The position numbers were made by a program, and so were the translations under genes. Positions 14,858 through 61,682 of a DNA stretch of 64,000 nucleotides are shown one piece after another. The stretch is from positions 6,076,001 through 6,140,000 of the forward strand of contig NC_003279.8 of assembly GCF_000002985.6 (NCBI RefSeq), in the 5' to 3' direction. Source of the stretch: Caenorhabditis elegans (Eukaryota; Nematoda; Chromadorea; Rhabditida; Rhabditidae). Each line of letters starts with the position of its first letter. Within the stretch, counting starts at the first letter, position 1. The notes beneath the pieces are model-generated. The model was not told where the DNA came from. It did not search any database and saw nothing but the letters and a program-made list of their open reading frames with translations.

Positions 14858-17345
14858 GGCTCTTTTTCGTTGCGATTTTCGTTGAAATTCGAACTGATTT
14901 TTTAAAACTCTGGTGGAGAAGATTGACTTGCAACGTGGTATATTTTACATTTTTGATCAGCAATGTCACGTTTCTCTTGTAGTGGAAAAATTATTTTATG
15001 TTTTAACGTTAAAATTCTGATTCCGTTGGCGTTCTGTTTTTTTCCAACTACAGTAATTTGGTCTTAGAATTCATTAAAATCTGTTTCGAAAAAATCCAAA
15101 AGCGAGAATTGCGCCAACGACTTGCTGGCGCACTTCGCATTTTAGCTTGCGCGTTTCTCGTTTTCTTATCTCTCTCTCTAGAAAGTTTTTGAATGCATTT
15201 TTATAAGGATTCACTATTTTTTATGCTCTTACCACTGTATCCTTGTAAATCGTTTTTTTTGGTGAAGACCTCCTATCCCTTGAATTGCCGTTGATTGATT
15301 GTTTTGACCAGAAGCTGCACATCCAACTTCCGCATTTTTTAAGAAAAGAAAACAAGATCACATGGCCACCCGTGTCCTCCGAAGTTTTTCTGATTTGAAA
15401 AAAGTTGTTTGATCTATTATTTTAATTTAAAAACATTATAGCTGTTAGCTATAGATCTCAAACCCGATTTTCAAACATTGATAAGAACATTTCGGAGTTG
15501 GTAACATATCCCTTCTCTTCACGTTAAGACAACTTTCAAGATAAATATTTCAAATCCGTGACCATTCCCAATTCTTTGCTCTTTTCCCCTTGGAATTCGC
15601 CCTCCGAACAGCTGTGAAAACCAAAAACACGAACTTGACGCTGTTGAGATGTTTTTCGTCGTCTCGGTCACACAATCTGCGTCTCTGGCCTCAACCGCCG
15701 CCGCCTTCCGTCAATCAATGAAAAGCAAAGATAGATTGTATAAAGTTGAGAGATTCAGAGAAATTGCTGCTTCTCTGTTCTCTCCGTCAGCGCTTAAAAG
15801 CAGTGAAACGTGCCAATAGTTCTCCTTGATAACGACTCCCTTTTCTGGTTTTCTCTGTATCATTAGTACTTGAAAAGAAAGGAACTACGTACTCAATCTT
15901 TGATAATTGGTTGGTATACTGTCGTAATTTGTTGAATGATTTCGTAATAATTTAATTTTTATTTCTGGTTTCTGGTTTCTCTTAAAACTTACTCAAATCA
16001 TTAATATTCCTATGCTCACATAAACTTAAAAGTTTTTCTTATCTGATCACAATCTAAATTAGGTCTGCAAATCATCTATCGAAAATCAATAATTATTTCG
16101 CAATAAAATAGGCGAAGAGCAAGTCTTATGACACTGTTATCTTTCCGGGAACATTCTCGGTCCACAATAGATAAGGCATCCAAATCATTCGATTCACTGT
16201 TTACACGTCGATCGATCTTGTTCTCCTTCTTCTCTATCTTCACTGTTTCACCTTCATTTTGCCTCAATAAGCTGTAGTGAAGTCATATGATTTTCTATTC
16301 TTTGTTGTCGAAATCGATTTTAATATAGAGTAGTTTCTAGTTTTACATTACTAAATCCACTCATTGATTCTATTGATCTCTCCTTTTTTAGGCGCAAATG
16401 TTTTGATTAATAATTACTTTCGATATCACAAGGCGCTGTTTGTCTGGTAATATTATGTTAGCTCCAGTTCTGATTAAAAATTTCCGTTAGAAAAAAGGTA
16501 TTTTCGGAAAAGTATCCTAATGGCGTGAGTATACCAATTATTTGTATCATGGCAATTGAGCAGAACTGATAATCGAGTCCCACAGGGTTTACGATTTCTA
16601 TTTGGATCTGATTTTGAAATGTGCAATAAGAAATAATCATCCCTACTTTCACTTTTGTAACGACCCATTTCGTCATTACCATATGACTTTCAAAGATCTG
16701 CGATGTGCACGTCACATATATTCATTCAAAATGGCGCCAGCAAGCCATTGAGCCAGAAAGAGCGTTTCTCTGTCGTCTCGCAATCTTTATGTCCCTCTGT
16801 TCCTCCGCCTCGCACTTCATTTATCGCCTGGTCACATGCTTCTTTGTGTTCACTCAATGTTCGTTCTGTATGTCTTGTGACAATTTACTTTAGAGGTTAA
16901 TAACACAGAAATATAAGACAGTTCATTACTATGTCTGTTCTATAGATCTTCTTTGACATCAATACAACATTTTACGCTTTTAAGAATCAAAAGCCTCTAA
17001 TTTCTATTTAAAAGCCACGAAGTAAATCAAATAATTGAACGAATCAAAAATCTCTTCTGACATGCTTTAATCTTTGGCATAAACTAATCGAATTATTCTA
17101 ATTTATTTCTAGCATATTTGATTATAGGACACCGTAAATGTTGAGATTGGTTAAAATCAATTTTTAAACATCTGGGATACGAATCAGTTCTCTGGAATAA
17201 TTTCTGATCACCACAACTATATTAATTTGTATTTCCGTTATGCTTCCTCGCCCTCGCCCACTCGTTCACTTTGCTTTTAAATCGATCTAATTCTTCTTAA
17301 TTTCAGTTTCCCACCACCCGCTTCGTACCTATCAAGAGAGACAAG
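14858..17345. other. Upstream region of oaz-1
   Basis: No gene is supported. Open frames here (for example plus 16703-16900) lack splice or domain support. The final part ends in TTTCAG at 17301-17306, used to start the oaz-1 first exon and probably a spliced-leader acceptor. Regulatory sequence for oaz-1 likely lies here. Confidence 0.45.
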
Positions 17346-17991
17346 ATGTCGAGTATTTTGAGTAGTAATTTTACGAATAAATCGAATCAATTGGTCAACG
17401 AGTCTGCCGTCGACAGGTGAGAATACAATGTGAAGGCAGTTTAAACAATAATATTTCGATTTTTCAGCTCGTTGACCGCCTCCCCATGCTCGACCCAGCC
17501 CGGCGACGTCGGATGGTGTTTTTGACGCCCCCCATGGCGTGCTCACCAAATTGCCGAACGAAACTCGCGCTATCGTATCGGCCGTTTCTCCAAACTGGCG
17601 CGTGACATCGATTGGCGAAAAGACATTGGCGATCATGATTCCACACGATCAACCGGTGCTCGGCATCTCTAAGAAGAACTTTGTGGACCTCTTGGAGTTC
17701 GCTGAAGACAAACTCGGTGAGTTCTATTTCAACCATTTCTAGATTTTCTACAAAGTTGTGTTTTTAAACGGAGAAATCCTGTTAAAAAGTTATATTCCCT
17801 GAGAAATGTTTGTAAACTTTTTTATTACAGAAATGGAGCGTGTTTTGGCTGTATTTGAGAAGGCTCGTATTAACCCAACGGAAGGATTCCCACGTACTCT
17901 TCGTTACGTCGGATTCCGTCCATATGCCATCGACGAGCATCCAGTTCATCTCCCAGCTGAAAAATACTTCATCATGAGCTACAAGGTCTAA
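17346..17991 (+). CDS. oaz-1: Ornithine decarboxylase antizyme, decoded by +1 frameshift
   Basis: Exons are 17346-17416, 17468-17716 and 17831-17991. Frame 1 (MSSILSSNFTNKSNQ...) runs 42 codons and stops at TGA 17523-17525. One base further on, the +1 frame encodes 117 residues of antizyme domain: NFVDLLEFAEDKL, then a C-terminal part with FPRTLRYVGFRP and EKYFIMSYKV. With the shift the product is 159 residues. Antizyme binds ornithine decarboxylase monomers, sends them to the proteasome without ubiquitin, and blocks polyamine uptake. High polyamine raises frameshifting, closing a feedback loop. Most animals use UCC-UGA, whereas nematode antizymes are known with UUU-UGA, as here. The 3' UTR is long, with AATAAA at 18400-18405. 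Confidence 0.92.
17517..17540 (+). promoter_or_regulatory. oaz-1: Programmed +1 ribosomal frameshift site
   Basis: The site reads TGT TTT TGA C: frame-1 codon TTT at 17520-17522, stop TGA at 17523-17525, and frame-2 codon GAC from 17524. Directly downstream ACGCC (17525-17529) can pair with GGCGT (17536-17540) around a six-base loop. The shift site is certain from the two frames. Whether this short hairpin helps is inference, because it lies very close to the stop. Confidence 0.85.
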
Positions 17992-29312: not shown

Positions 29313-29744
29313 ATTCCTTCTTCTATCACTTCATATCACCCGAATGATGTTATCAGTCAGCTTCTTATGGATGTGGGAATTGGCGATAAACACTGAATTA
29401 TTGGATTTTCTTGGTATAATTATTTCAATTGTTATATCTACCAAAGTTCTTTTGCATATTTTTTCTTATGGTACACTTTTCCAAAATATTCCAATTTTAA
29501 AAATTATTTTCAGAAATAGTCTTCACTTTCAATTCGGAAGAATACGAGCAGCAAGTTGACTTGAATTGATGCTTTAAGAAATAGCATACGATGATTCAAA
29601 TGGGTTGTATCTACGGGAGCCATGTATTAATGCAATAAATGATTTTCAAACAAAATTTTATAGAATAAAATGAAAAACTAGTCTCGGAGTGTTACCATAG
29701 TCTTTTGTCCTCACAATCATTCAGACAGGGATAACTCTTGGTCG

Positions 29745-29825
29745 TCATCGACGGCTGGGGGTCGAACCAGCGACCCGCTGCACACAAAACACACACGCTA
29801 CCGGTGACACCATTCATGTCAGGTT
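29745..29825 (-). pseudogene. tRNA-like relic with intact T arm
   Basis: On the minus strand GCTGGTTCGACCCCCAGC forms a T arm with a five-base stem, and GGTTCGACC matches the B box. Upstream GGTGTCACCGGTAGCG resembles a D arm. I cannot fold a seven-base acceptor stem or a clear anticodon arm, so it is more likely a tRNA-derived repeat than a working tRNA. Confidence 0.4.
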
Positions 29826-53500: not shown

Positions 53501-56500
53501 GTTTGAAGTTTTAAACGTCTTTTTTCATTCATAAGTTTGTTATTGAGAATGCAGAGCGGCAATTTAAATTTCGAGTAGAGCCTTCGGAGATTTAACTTCA
53601 AAAGTCAGAAAATTAAGTCGTAATAATCGACTCAAAAATCAAAAACAAAATCACAACAAAAATGAGAAAAATGTGAATTCATAGGCAGTTTAAATTAGAG
53701 CACTAAATGGTTACTGTAGTCTGAGTCCATTTGTACATTTTTTTTTTGCCGTTTCTTGTTCGTTGCCAAGTGTATAGAATGCAACTGATACATTTTAGTT
53801 GGTTAATTTACACTAATATTCGACATAAAATGTACATTTATTTACGGTGAATAGTGTTGTAAAACTTGAAAATATGTTAAAATAAATAACAGCAAAATAA
53901 AAAAACAGACCCAAAAAGGTGAAAACCAAAAATATTCGTGGTCATCAGTTTTCTCAAGAGAAATCAATATTTGAATGCCAACGTGAAGGCACTTCAAGCT
54001 TAACAAAAGAGAAATAAACTATTTTGCATGTTTCAGATTCCAATATTCTCCTCTAAGAATTTCTCACAAAAAATCATGAAAAGTATCATAAAACACATTT
54101 TTATGTCTAGTAAAAGGATGAGATGCGTGTTGGTAGATGAATGACATAATTTTGAAGTAATAAATAACCACATAGAAGACGTTTTTATTTGCTTCAAAAA
54201 TCTAGAATAAGATTTTCTATAGTTTTCAATTGTTTTTAGTGGAATGGACATGCTTGATATGGTCAGCGTCACAATGGCCATCACATGTGCCGCGAAAGTG
54301 GAAGAAAAAATATAAAAAACATAGGCTACCAATTTTCGAAATCGAACCGAGTTAGGTACCAGATACTATAATCATTTTAGACACTCAGAGGCCTCAAAGT
54401 AAAATTATATAAAATAATAACACCGTAATTCTTGAATACAAAGGTAATTCAAATCCTGAAAATTCAAGAACTATCCTACAGCCAAATCTCGTTCCTTTTC
54501 TTTTCTCGTAAATGTTTTTTACCTGTCCATTCATATATATATCTGTCTATTACTCTTAACGTCTAATGCCCTTTTGATCCGATAAAAATAACAGAATTAG
54601 TAAGAAGGTGGGAAAACATTGTCCTCTTTTCATTCAAAGAACATATTAGATAAACTTTGAATTTTTGGAAAATGATTTCTGCTGAATTTTTAAAGATATC
54701 TTCTCTGTTAAAACAAAAAGTATTCCTTTGGTGTTTTTGAGTATGTATGTGCATTTTGAAATTTCATACTACAATATTCCAATGTACTAAAAATTTTGGA
54801 ATTCCCTCGATCCTCTTCTCTCTCAACTTGCATTGGAAGAAAAAAGTGGACCTAATCAACCGTACCAATTTCTTCCCCAATTTTCTGACCATTTTCCATC
54901 TAATTACTATCTATTTCTTCTTTTTTCTTTTATTTTGCAACAAGAAAATTTTGAGAAATTTTCAATTTCCAAAAAAAAATTCTCGCCAAAATTGGAAATT
55001 GTAAGTTTTCGTACAGTAAAAAAACATGATTGTTGTTCTTTAGAATATGCCTACAGGCAGTATGAGTGTCTATTTCTCATATAATTTAATTTGGCAGAGA
55101 AGACTTTTTATGTGTTCTAGAAGTGGGAAAATTAGAAAAAAAACCTGCAGTTTTTCCCAGAAGTTTTTCTTGCATAGTTTTTATTTCTGTATTATATAAT
55201 AATTACCTTGTAAATCATATTTTATATGTATGTGATTTCTACAAAAATATGCTTTTGTACGAGCCTGCAAAACAAGAGTATCGTATTCAAAAACTATTGC
55301 TAGTGTGAAGTTATTAAACAGCAAAGTGAGTGTTTCAGCTCAATTTTGAATTTTCTAATAAAGTCTATGTATTTTGTAAGAAACCCTCTTCAAACAGGCT
55401 TCTACAAAACGTTTGGTTGCAGAGAAGAACCTGGAACAGGAAAAAAAAGTCGATCTAGAATTTTTTAAGCTTGCAAGAGCCTCCAAAGTAGCAGAAACTC
55501 TCTGAAAAAAGTTAGTTCAAAGTTCTCTTCTTTAATTTTTTCTGAATTTTATGTAAGACTGTTTCCAAAATTTGCTCTTTCGAATGAAAAAATAATAATT
55601 TTTAAAAAGCAAAAGTGAGCTCAGATATGACACATTTATGTAGATAGAGAGTTTCCAAAAACAGTTCTTTCTTTTTTTAAAAGAATTGTCGAGAAAATGT
55701 TTTTATGTTCATTTTATATACCCTATTGAGTCACTTTTCCCTTGATTTATAATTCATCAAACGCACACATTTTAAAATCAGAATCAGCGGGGGTTACGAG
55801 AAAAGATTCAATAGGAGAGGGGAACTGCTGGTGGCAGAAAAGTGACGTCAAGCGCGGCCGTGGTCCTGAAAGGAGGTATTTTTCTTTGTAGGATCACATT
55901 TTCGAACCTAGCTCTTTCAATGGATAAGAGCTTTTGCTCGTCCAAGATCCGCCGATAGTTTTTAATACACCCACCCCCTACAGACAGACTGCAGCTCCCA
56001 GTTTCTGCCTCCGAAATCACTTTTTCATTTGATTTTTTCTTTTATTTTCGGATCTTCCTTTCTCCTTCTGCCCTTTTTCGTCTGTCTTTTATGTTAAAGG
56101 ACATAACAAACAGAAAAGATGAGTATGTTTGCACACACATTCCCAAATACGGGAGGAGCTTTAGAAGAAAAATGATTGAGATTTTGAGCATCCAAGGATA
56201 TTTTCTTTGGTCTTTTATGGACTAAGCTTTAGTTTTAGGAATGTATTTACTAGTTTTAAATAATATACTTCTTCAACAAGGACAGAGGTTTCAGTAAATA
56301 GTTTTATTGAGTAACTGTGGGCACACGTTTTATTTTGCTTCAATGACATAGACTTAAAGTTGAAGTAATGTCGGTGGGTATTTTATCTGAATTTTGAAAA
56401 AATGATGGTTGATTTTTATAAAAGTACAGTTTCGCAAGAACTTCTACAATGCAATCAAAATAAAATAATCTGCATATAAAATTGGCGAACATTTTTTTTG

Positions 56501-57284: not shown

Positions 57285-60200
57285 ATGGAGGAGAAAAGTT
57301 TACTGCAGAAACTGCGGTCGTAAGTTTTTAGAAATAATTCTACCATGTTCAAGTAATGTTATTTCAGATACCCACCAGCGGTATTTTTTATGCTGGGAAA
57401 TGAGTTTTGTGAGCGCTTCTCATTCTACGGTATGAAGACCATCCTTTTCATTTATCTCATCACAGAACATGAATTCTCGCCCAGGTACTGCATAATTTAT
57501 TACGAAAAGAGAGCAAAGTTTAAAGTATTCCAGCAAGGCGACATTCATCTATCATCTTTTCACCTGTATTGCCTATCTTACCCCATTAATTGGATCAATT
57601 ATGGCGGATTCGGTGTTTGGACGGTTCAAGGTGAGTTTGGATACTGTTAATGATAAAATTAGGATTACTGTAACTGGGAAGAAATGAAAATCTGTAACCT
57701 CTTGTGAGTATCGCAGTAAGATTTAGTAGAATAAGACTGAGTATGCTGGAAAGTTGAGCAACTGAGATACCGTATCCGATTATCCGACTAGTTTTCAACG
57801 AATAGAGGCTTCAAGGCTGACAGAGTAAATACGGTAAAAATATAGATTTGAAGATTTTTATTCAATTTTTGATATTGAGGGCTGAGAAGTGGATATTAAT
57901 ATTGGAATATGTTGAATAATTGTGTTCGAAATTAAAACGTTCGAGAATAAATGTTCAGATAATATAATGTTAAGCCTAAATGTATAATGGGTCTAATTCA
58001 CACGTACATATATACTTCTTCCTCTTCAGATCAATAGCTTTTTACAACTCACCTTGTAATCAATTTACAGGTTATTCTCTATGGCTCCTCCATTTACGTT
58101 GTCGGACACGTTCTTCTATCACTTGGCGCTGTACCATTCCTTTCCTATCCCATCCGATCATCACTTGATTTCTCGGGACTTTTTGTCATTGCTTTTGCAA
58201 CTGGATGCATTAAACCTTGTGTTTCCGCATTCGCAGCTGACCAGGTACCGTGTTGAATATGCTTATTTAAATTACAGCAATTTCCTTGCAGTTTACCGAA
58301 GACCAAAAAGATCTTCGCTCGCAATTTTTCTCGTTCTTCTACTTTGCAATCAATGGAGGATCGTTGTTTGCTATAATCATTACTCCAATCCTTCGTGGTC
58401 GAGTTCAATGCTTCGGAAATGCACACTGCTTCCCATTGGCTTTTGGTGTTCCAGGAGTCTTGATGTTGTTGGCGTTGATTCTATTCTTGATGGGATGGTC
58501 AATGTACAAGAAGCATCCACCAAGCAAGGAAAACGTTGGATCCAAAGTTGTCGCTGTTATCTATACTTCGTTAAGGAAAATGGTTGGAGGGTGAGGCTTT
58601 TTTCCAATAATTTAAAATATAAAAAAGAACGGTATGATATATATAGTTCAATGAATCACTATTGAATTCCCAAAGACTATACAAATCAAAGTTTAAAGTT
58701 TAAAGAAATTTTGAATACATGATTGAACATTGAAACATTTACTTTACTTTGTAAGAGGTTTTTAAGATGGAGTAGTGGATGAGGGAAATCATTTAAATGT
58801 ATAGTACATATACATATATAAATACTCGCTGCAATATCAAAAGAATATCATGTTGTTTTCGTAATCAAGGTGGAAACTAACTCGAAAGCGCTTTTAACCT
58901 TGAATTTCGGCGCAAAATTGTTATACATTCTGCAGCCCAAAACATTTCGGAGGTGTCAAGACTGGCTATCGTAACTTTTCATCATAAACAGCGAAATTTT
59001 ACATCTGAGTTATAAAAGTTGTATCTGTAATATTTAAATAATGCAATATGTTGATTCTTTTAGAATGATTTTAGGAGATTCTGCTCTTGACCGTGCAGAT
59101 CGTAATTTATAAAACAATTCGTTAATAGTCAAAGTTCCAGTGCATCTCGTGACAAGCCGGTGACTCATTGGCTCGACCATGCAGCTCCAGAACATTCTCA
59201 AAAGATGATTGACTCAACTCGTGGACTCCTGAATGTCGCTGTTATCTTCTGTCCTCTCATTTTCTTCTGGGCTCTTTTTGATCAACAAGGATCCACGTGG
59301 GTACTTCAAGCTCGTCGTCTTGACGGAAGAGTCGGACATTTCTCCATTCTTCCTGAACAAATTCACGCAATTAATCCAGTCTGTGTCCTGATCCTTGTTC
59401 CAATTTTCGAAGGATGGGTCTATCCAGCATTGAGAAAGATCACCAGGGTCACACCTCTCAGAAAAATGGCAGTTGGAGGTCTTTTGACTGCATTTTCATT
59501 TGCTATTGCTGGAGTTTTACAGGTGTTTATGAACAGGCTTTGATTTTATATAAATTATGAGTTTCAGCTAAAAGTTAATGAAACTATGGAGTTCCCACCT
59601 TCCCTTGGACGAATTTATCTGCAACGTGTTGGAAACGAAAGCTTGATCAGTGACTTCAGATATAAAAGTGATGGAAGACTTATTGGAGGTAACTAATATT
59701 TTCAAAGTGTTCTCCTTTCTGAAAATATCATGGACCCCCGGAGTGACGTCACTCCTCCTCTGCTATCATTCTTTTCTGTCTTGTCAATAAAGACACTTTT
59801 AATTGCCCTCTAGGCGCCTCTGTGCCGTGCCGTCGATAGCTCAGTTGGTAGAGCGGAGGACTGTAGAGTTCGCAGATATCCTTAGGTCACTGGTTCGAAT
59901 CCGGTTCGACGGATTTTTTTCCATTTTTCAGACGGAATGCTTCCAAAAGGCCGAACCGAGTTGGACGCAGGAATATATACGTTTAACACAGGACTTAAAA
60001 ATGAATCTCAAGAAATTGACATTTCCACTCCAAATAAAGGTTATGTGATGGCAGTTTTCAGATTAAAAGATGCTGTGTAAGTTACTTCAGGGAAATTTCG
60101 ATCGAAATCTTAGATAATTTCAGAGAAGTAGTGAAGTTCGACTATAAAGTTGAGAAAACAGATAATGGAGCAACGCGTGTGTTTGTTGTCACTGCTCGTG

Positions 60201-61682
60201 AAGATGCTGACACATTGGTCTATGCAATCAATAAGAAGTTAGCGACTTCTCATACTAAAGATACTATTTTACTAACATATTTCAGGGGTAAAATATTGAG
60301 CAGTTGTGAGCTTAAATCCGGATCCTACGTTGATGTGATTCCTGGAATCATCAGTGATCCAAATGTCCGGTTATATTGGGGACCTAAGAATAGTTGTTCA
60401 GGAGTTGACTGCCCTAATACTGTTACATTGAATGTATGCTGAATTGTGGAAAAAAGGAAACGACAAATGATTTTTTCAGGCCCAAATGGGAGCCGTCCAT
60501 GTCCTCCACATTCACCCTTCAACAACAGAGGGTGACTTCAACTTGTTGGTGAGTGACTGCCGTCAGGTCTAGGCCACGAAAACATGTTGTGTCGCCGCCC
60601 GGTTAGCTCAGTCGGTAGAGCACCAGACTCTTAATCTGGTTGTCGCGGGTTCGAGCCCCGCATTGGGCTCATCTTTTTTGTTTTTTAGCGGATTAAGAAA
60701 GAAATACATTTGAAATTTTGCATATGAAACTTGTTATTGTCGTGTTAAAGAGGACGACGAAACGGAAATTGAAAACGATATGGTGGTGTCGGTTTGTTGA
60801 CGGTTTGTGCTACTACATATTTCTTGTCGCCAGGAGCCAAATCTTCATAGACCGAGAAAACGAGTGCCTAAAAAGATAAATAAATCAGTTTTTTGTTTGA
60901 AAATTTTTTTAAAACTCACGAAGGAGGCAATTATCATGCTCTTAGGTTCTAGTCAAAAATTTTTCGAACTGATCAAGGCCTCCCGTTTTTTATACAAATA
61001 GTATATAATAAAATTAGGAATTAGGAGAATGTCACGGGATCAATTAGATAATTTTTTTTTTGAAAAATGAAGCTCAAAATATTATTAAATCAGATTGGTT
61101 TTTTTTTGAGTTTATCGGAGAAGTCAGCGATTTCAAATCATAAAAAAACTCCCTTTATTCGATATTCGAAACAAATGAATTTGATCAAAAGGGATGTCAA
61201 CTGGATTGTTAATAATCAAAAATATTTCCAGGTACGCCCCAACTCTGTGAGCATTCTGTGGTCACTTCCACAATATATTATAATCACCCTTGGAGAAGTT
61301 TTGTTGTCGGTGACTGGATTGGAATTTGCTTATTCTCAAGCTGCTCCAAACATGAAATCCGTGCTCACAGCAATGTGGTTACTGACTGTTTTCGCTGGAA
61401 ACTTGATTGATATGATGATATCCGGTACTCGACTTATACCACATCCGGCATTGGAGTTTTTCTTCTACAGTACTCTTATGGTTATTGTTATGGGAGTTTT
61501 TATTCTTTTAGGTACGTAACAAAAGGGTATATATTGTTCAATTTTAAATATTTTCAGCCATGCAATATACCTACGTGGAAGATAATGACGATGAAATTAC
61601 AATAACAGAGTCCGAAAAGAAAGATGTAATTGCGTTAACTGAAATTGAATCAGGAACTGCTACTTCGGATAAGAAAGAATAA
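57285..61682 (+). CDS. pept-3: Proton-coupled oligopeptide transporter (POT/SLC15)
   Basis: Thirteen exons in one frame give 703 residues: 57285-57319, 57368-57484, 57534-57630, 58071-58244, 58292-58590, 59135-59522, 59568-59688, 59932-60076, 60124-60237, 60286-60433, 60480-60548, 61232-61511, 61558-61682. POT signatures are visible: GNEFCERFSFYGMKTIL with the proton-coupling ExxER-type motif, and the FYFAINGGSL motif after QKDLRSQFFSF. Multiple membrane segments flank a large extracellular loop (exons 7-11, with NETMEF and other N-glycosylation sequons), as in PEPT1/2. The acidic C-terminal tail is cytosolic. It imports di- and tripeptides with protons. The exon 6 acceptor (GTCAAAG) is weak but required by phase. 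Two tRNA genes lie in introns. The symbol pept-3 rests on remembered position; other PEPT paralogues are similar. Confidence 0.9.
59830..59913 (+). tRNA. tRNA-Tyr (GTA) with an 11-base intron
   Basis: The acceptor stem CCGTCGA (59830-59836) pairs with TCGACGG (59906-59912), with A as the discriminator base. The A box TAGCTCAGTTGG, B box GGTTCGAATCC, anticodon GTA (59863-59865) and a short intron just after position 37 (about 59867-59877) are all as expected for tRNA-Tyr. A T run (GATTTTTTT) terminates Pol III. It lies in pept-3 intron 7, same strand. Confidence 0.92.
60597..60669 (+). tRNA. tRNA-Lys (CTT)
   Basis: The acceptor stem GCCCGGT (60597-60603) pairs with ATTGGGC (60662-60668) using two G-U pairs. 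The A box TTAGCTCAGTCGG, anticodon loop CTCTTAA with anticodon CTT, and T arm GCGGGTTCGAGCCCCGC are intact. The discriminator is T rather than the G I would expect, so check for a near-functional copy. TTTTTT follows as terminator. It lies in pept-3 intron 11, same strand. Confidence 0.88.

Follow-up and report, generated by a model that had tools for sequence, protein, structure and literature searches.

The window analysed, a stretch of 64,000 nucleotides of Caenorhabditis elegans DNA (NC_003279.8, positions 6,076,001 to 6,140,000), contains on its forward strand a gene with two overlapping reading frames, ORF1 and ORF2, spread over three exons. All coordinates below are those of the window unless a genome contig is named. 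ORF1 starts in exon 1 at ATG 17346 (coding part 17346-17416, by translation), and an acceptor-like TTTCAG ends at 17306, 39 nt 5' of this ATG. Intron 1 (GTGAGAAT...TTTTTCAG) occupies positions 17417-17467. Its acceptor agrees with the worm consensus at 8 of 8 positions and its donor at 6 of 9, and intron 2 (17717-17830) has a 7/9 donor and a 6/8 acceptor, these scores being plain counts of matches to the consensus and not the output of a trained model. ORF2 remains open over the join made by intron 2. The remainder of ORF1 (17468-17525) ends in PGDVGWCF followed by a stop codon; its full translation is MSSILSSNFTNKSNQLVNESAVDSSLTASPCSTQPGDVGWCF, a product of 42 residues.

The 3' end of ORF1 reads UGG-UGU-UUU-UGA. 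UGG-UGU (17514-17519) adjoins the shift codon on its 5' side, in the place of the antizyme 'module A', and the shift site UUU_UGA covers 17520-17525, with T17523 skipped. In the surrounding sequence (17517-17540, TGTTTTTGACGCCCCCCATGGCGT), TTT lies at 17520-17522, TGA at 17523-17525 and GAC at 17524-17526. ORF2 runs in the +1 frame from GAC 17524, first through exon 2 (17524-17716) and then through exon 3 (17831-17991), to TAA 17989-17991, which gives 117 residues after the shift. Translation of the unshifted frame meets more stops within the same stretch. An antisense stop-to-stop open frame of 123 residues lies opposite the antizyme exons at 17277-17648 (-) and is probably a by-product of coding composition.

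Elsewhere in the window, a Caenorhabditis snoRNA, ceN61, was found at 29681-29752 (-), and a tRNA-Lys (CTT) at 60597-60670 (+). At 59830-59913 (+) ARAGORN also reported a tRNA whose anticodon would have four bases, 'gtag'; judged by eye, this is probably a normal tRNA-Tyr (GTA) that carries a short intron and was misread under the bacterial setting.

Identity of the gene

The 117 residues of ORF2 match the Pfam family ODC_AZ (PF02100) with an E-value of 6.6e-18 and 65.1 bits, above the curated cut-off of 24.2. The match spans ORF2 residues 31-117 and profile positions 25-114 of 114, whereas the 42-residue ORF1 product matched no Pfam family at E-values up to 1. At a threshold of 0.001 only three PDB sequences were matched, all of them antizyme 1, the best at 6.4e-5 with ORF2 as the query. 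A profile search with ODC_AZ through the whole genome (100,286,401 bases, 7 contigs; 3 candidates scored) returned a single place above the cut-off, and this place is exon 3 of the present gene. A change of frame at this point is therefore far beyond chance, since it is ORF2 that matches ODC_AZ. Because the Pfam match starts only at ORF2 residue 31, our placement of the exact junction relies on the open frames together with the ORF1 peptide known from the literature. That peptide, PGDVG, is printed as the C. elegans antizyme ORF1 residues beside the shift site in a 2016 review (PMC5009743), and it is the same as the ORF1 peptide encoded here; we saw no difference between the published antizyme and this gene. 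The same text gives C. elegans one antizyme, and PMC2375905 reports one as expected in this species and one as predicted there by the gene-finder OAF.

The arrangement of the locus is that of an antizyme gene. ORF1 and ORF2 overlap, ORF2 lies in the +1 frame and the first base of the stop is U; T in this position is described as universal at antizyme sites (PMC2375905). UGG, a trait of the family, is present as the second codon 5' of the shift codon, and the shift codon UUU is among those known at antizyme shift sites. We thus conclude with very high confidence that the locus is the C. elegans ornithine decarboxylase antizyme gene and that it is decoded by a +1 shift at UUU-UGA. A sequence-only reading of this DNA had proposed such a shift, with ORF1 ending at TGA 17523-17525, the antizyme domain continuing from GAC 17524 in the +1 frame alone, and UUU replacing UCC in the P site. 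The frame boundaries proved exact to the base, the TTT stands at 17520-17522, and UUU has been published for nematodes. The frameshift itself is already known for the worm antizyme and is a textbook case that uses the second commonest shift codon. The accessible part of PMC3500957 holds nothing on the worm antizyme. A pattern search for relatives in viral contigs returned 13 fitting stretches, none of which was confirmed.

Sequence motifs and RNA structure at the shift site

The shift-site motif proves nothing by itself, because TGGTGYNNNTGA occurs three times in the window (mean of 0.95 in shuffled sequences, with at least three copies in 5 of 100 shuffles) and TGGTGYYYYTGAY is no commoner in the genome than its reversed control (160 versus 178). 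On these genome and window counts the motif was rejected as proof of an antizyme. The core of the shift site, TGGTGTTTTTGA, has a second copy in the window at 54729-54740 (+), in AT-rich surroundings, that looks like chance. Among the matches listed, antizyme-site-like words cluster at C4:7735025-7736072, C1:10851796-10854742 and C4:4822671-4824984. Also among these, TGGTGCTCCTGAT (one copy being TGGTGCTTCTGAT) recurs with spacings in multiples of 45 bases. TGGTGTTTTTGAC forms two clusters, and in the C1 cluster its copies are spaced by multiples of 163. These clusters look like repeat arrays.

At the stop codon, ACGCC (17525-17529) can pair along its full length with GGCGT (17536-17540), a complementarity that the sequence-only reading had pointed out and to which it had tentatively assigned a role. 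The resulting five-base-pair hairpin, ACGCC-CCCCAT-GGCGT (17525-17540), has a folding energy of -6.2 kcal/mol taken alone. Exon 2 (249 bases) contains no other perfect 5-bp hairpin with a loop of 3-10, the five pairs of this one have probabilities of 0.90-0.92 in the fold of 17490-17640, and in mammalian antizyme 1 the stimulator lies just 3 nt past the site (PMC5009743). We nevertheless consider it very unlikely that this hairpin stimulates the shift from the 3' side. Stems of 5 bp with a loop of 3-10 starting at 17523-17529 were counted in three controls of 3000 sequences each. Such a stem arose in 676 sequences when ORF2's own synonymous codons were permuted, in 181 when synonymous codons were drawn evenly and in 149 when single nucleotides were shuffled, so that a comparable stem is found in 5-23% of random controls and the hairpin is not clearly above chance expectation. 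Nor does the region show any excess of folding stability. Compared with 200 dinucleotide shuffles, 75 of which fold as well, the segment 17526-17600 has a z-score of -0.35, and its z-scores are 0.47 and 0.18 against two synonymous nulls; against the same nulls the values are -0.0 and 0.07 for 17526-17575, and -0.5 and -0.8 for 17526-17640. When the fold is begun after the stop codon, four pairs are left, with probabilities of 0.45-0.78. While UUU occupies the P site, the 5' arm of the hairpin lies within the ribosome; the stem includes the A of UGA and would therefore have to be open at the moment of the shift. Most 3' stimulators begin 6-9 nt past the site (PMC5009743). The hairpin most likely arises incidentally from the Asp-Ala and Gly-Val codons and probably has no function. 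These tests lend no support to the role once proposed for it.

A longer, imperfect stem-loop at 17548-17587 (-10.8 kcal/mol) is a weak candidate that was selected after the fold had been seen. Its stability slightly exceeds that of its synonymous recodings, which were as stable or more so in 24/300 and 13/300 cases under the two nulls (z-scores of -1.55 and -1.73). It is also highly improbable that either structure, 17525-17540 or 17548-17587, is a nematode-specific element after the stop through which starvation, and not polyamines, sets the rate of shifting.

Alternative routes into ORF2

A spliced transcript that joins ORF1 to ORF2 would remove the need for a frameshift. Such a junction is available in principle: donor 17417 paired with AG 17498 keeps the frame and enters ORF2 ahead of the shift site. 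We scanned GT dinucleotides at 17380-17522 (those in the interior of intron 1 omitted) against AG dinucleotides up to 17716, requiring a distance of 30 nt or more, and found 18 pairs that bring ORF1 and ORF2 into register. However, 13 of these bypass the TGA at the cost of at least 99 bases from the start of ORF2, with acceptors that match the consensus at only 2-5 of 8 positions. The other five enter before the shift site, but three of them, with their AG inside intron 1, then run into the in-frame TGA 17473-17475. The last two use AG 17498 (CGACCCAG), which scores 3/8 compared to 8/8 for the acceptor at 17467. As far as splice-site quality in the sequence can tell, a splice that bypasses the shift is extremely unlikely, and we rejected it.

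Independent entry into ORF2 fares no better. A TGA at 17473-17475, after the first 5 bases of exon 2, shuts its frame and thereby bars ORF2 to any upstream exon joined to the acceptor at 17467. The frame contains no ATG until 17635 (codon 38), and with the stop ahead of it, translation begun at an upstream AUG cannot lead into ORF2 either. Initiation inside ORF2, at ATG 17635, would yield a product short of 37 residues and is a poor rival to the frameshift. We found nothing to suggest that a sequencing error caused the frame break or that it marks a pseudogene. Either is practically out of the question, as the antizyme-type site has intact exons before and after it and the identical ORF1 peptide is in print as that of the C. 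elegans antizyme (PMC5009743).

Probable shift mechanism and relation to other antizymes

In the +1 shift that we favor, ribosomes reading ORF1 would come to its final UUU-UGA with the P site occupied by tRNA-Phe (anticodon GAA) and the A site by UGA, whose next base is C. UGA followed by C is a leaky stop. While UGA awaits the release factor, a share of the ribosomes may slip one base forward, the tRNA-Phe presumably re-pairing on the overlapping UUU at 17521-17523 (U_UUU). Translation would then resume at GAC 17524 and proceed into the antizyme domain, and the product, by analogy with its family, should bind ornithine decarboxylase (ODC) and lower polyamine synthesis. We infer the re-pairing step, the efficiency of the shift and its control by polyamines or starvation. 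All 15 tRNA-Phe-like sites in the genome carry the GAA anticodon and none carries AAA, as counted by exact matches to an anticodon-arm pattern that would miss diverged copies; UUU is therefore probably read by wobble. The sequence-only reading had called polyamine control of the shift established, which holds for antizymes in general and is a weaker side point for C. elegans specifically. Control of the C. elegans antizyme is reportedly the subject of Stegehake et al. 2015, to judge by its title.

The genome also contains an ODC gene (C5:6899129-6899818, 1.6e-73) and a second, weaker ODC-like gene (C1:3832432-3832866, 4.0e-15), the latter perhaps an antizyme inhibitor. Both genes fit the familiar circuit in which the enzyme is joined by antizyme and perhaps by an antizyme inhibitor.

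According to published work, UUU is the second commonest codon at the antizyme site, occurring in certain fungi and in nematodes, and in human OAZ1 it is the only replacement that gives a signal similar to wild type. The antizymes of Agaricomycetes, such as Coprinopsis cinerea, resemble the worm gene in having UUU-UGA, a +1 shift, the ORF1/ORF2 layout and a 5' module A, the latter comprising the 6-7 nt that abut the shift site. In PMC4505036, the 35 Agaricomycete and Dacrymycete sequences studied have UUU-UGA. In the Agaricomycete antizymes, though, the nascent peptide provides a conserved signal and an RNA structure lies 19 nt 3' of the site (PMC4505036). Mammalian OAZ1 shares with the worm gene a homologous domain, a +1 shift at the UGA terminating ORF1, and UGG as the second codon 5' of the site, a position where UGG is strongly conserved (PMC5009743). 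It differs in its UCC-UGA shift site and in the pseudoknot 3 nt downstream (PMC5009743), whereas the worm gene has UUU and no significant structure was found at the positions described above. A 3' RNA stimulator is not universal among antizymes (PMC2375905). Antizyme frameshifting is a classic case of regulatory recoding, kept from yeast to mammals, and the locus described here confirms its known example in the worm.
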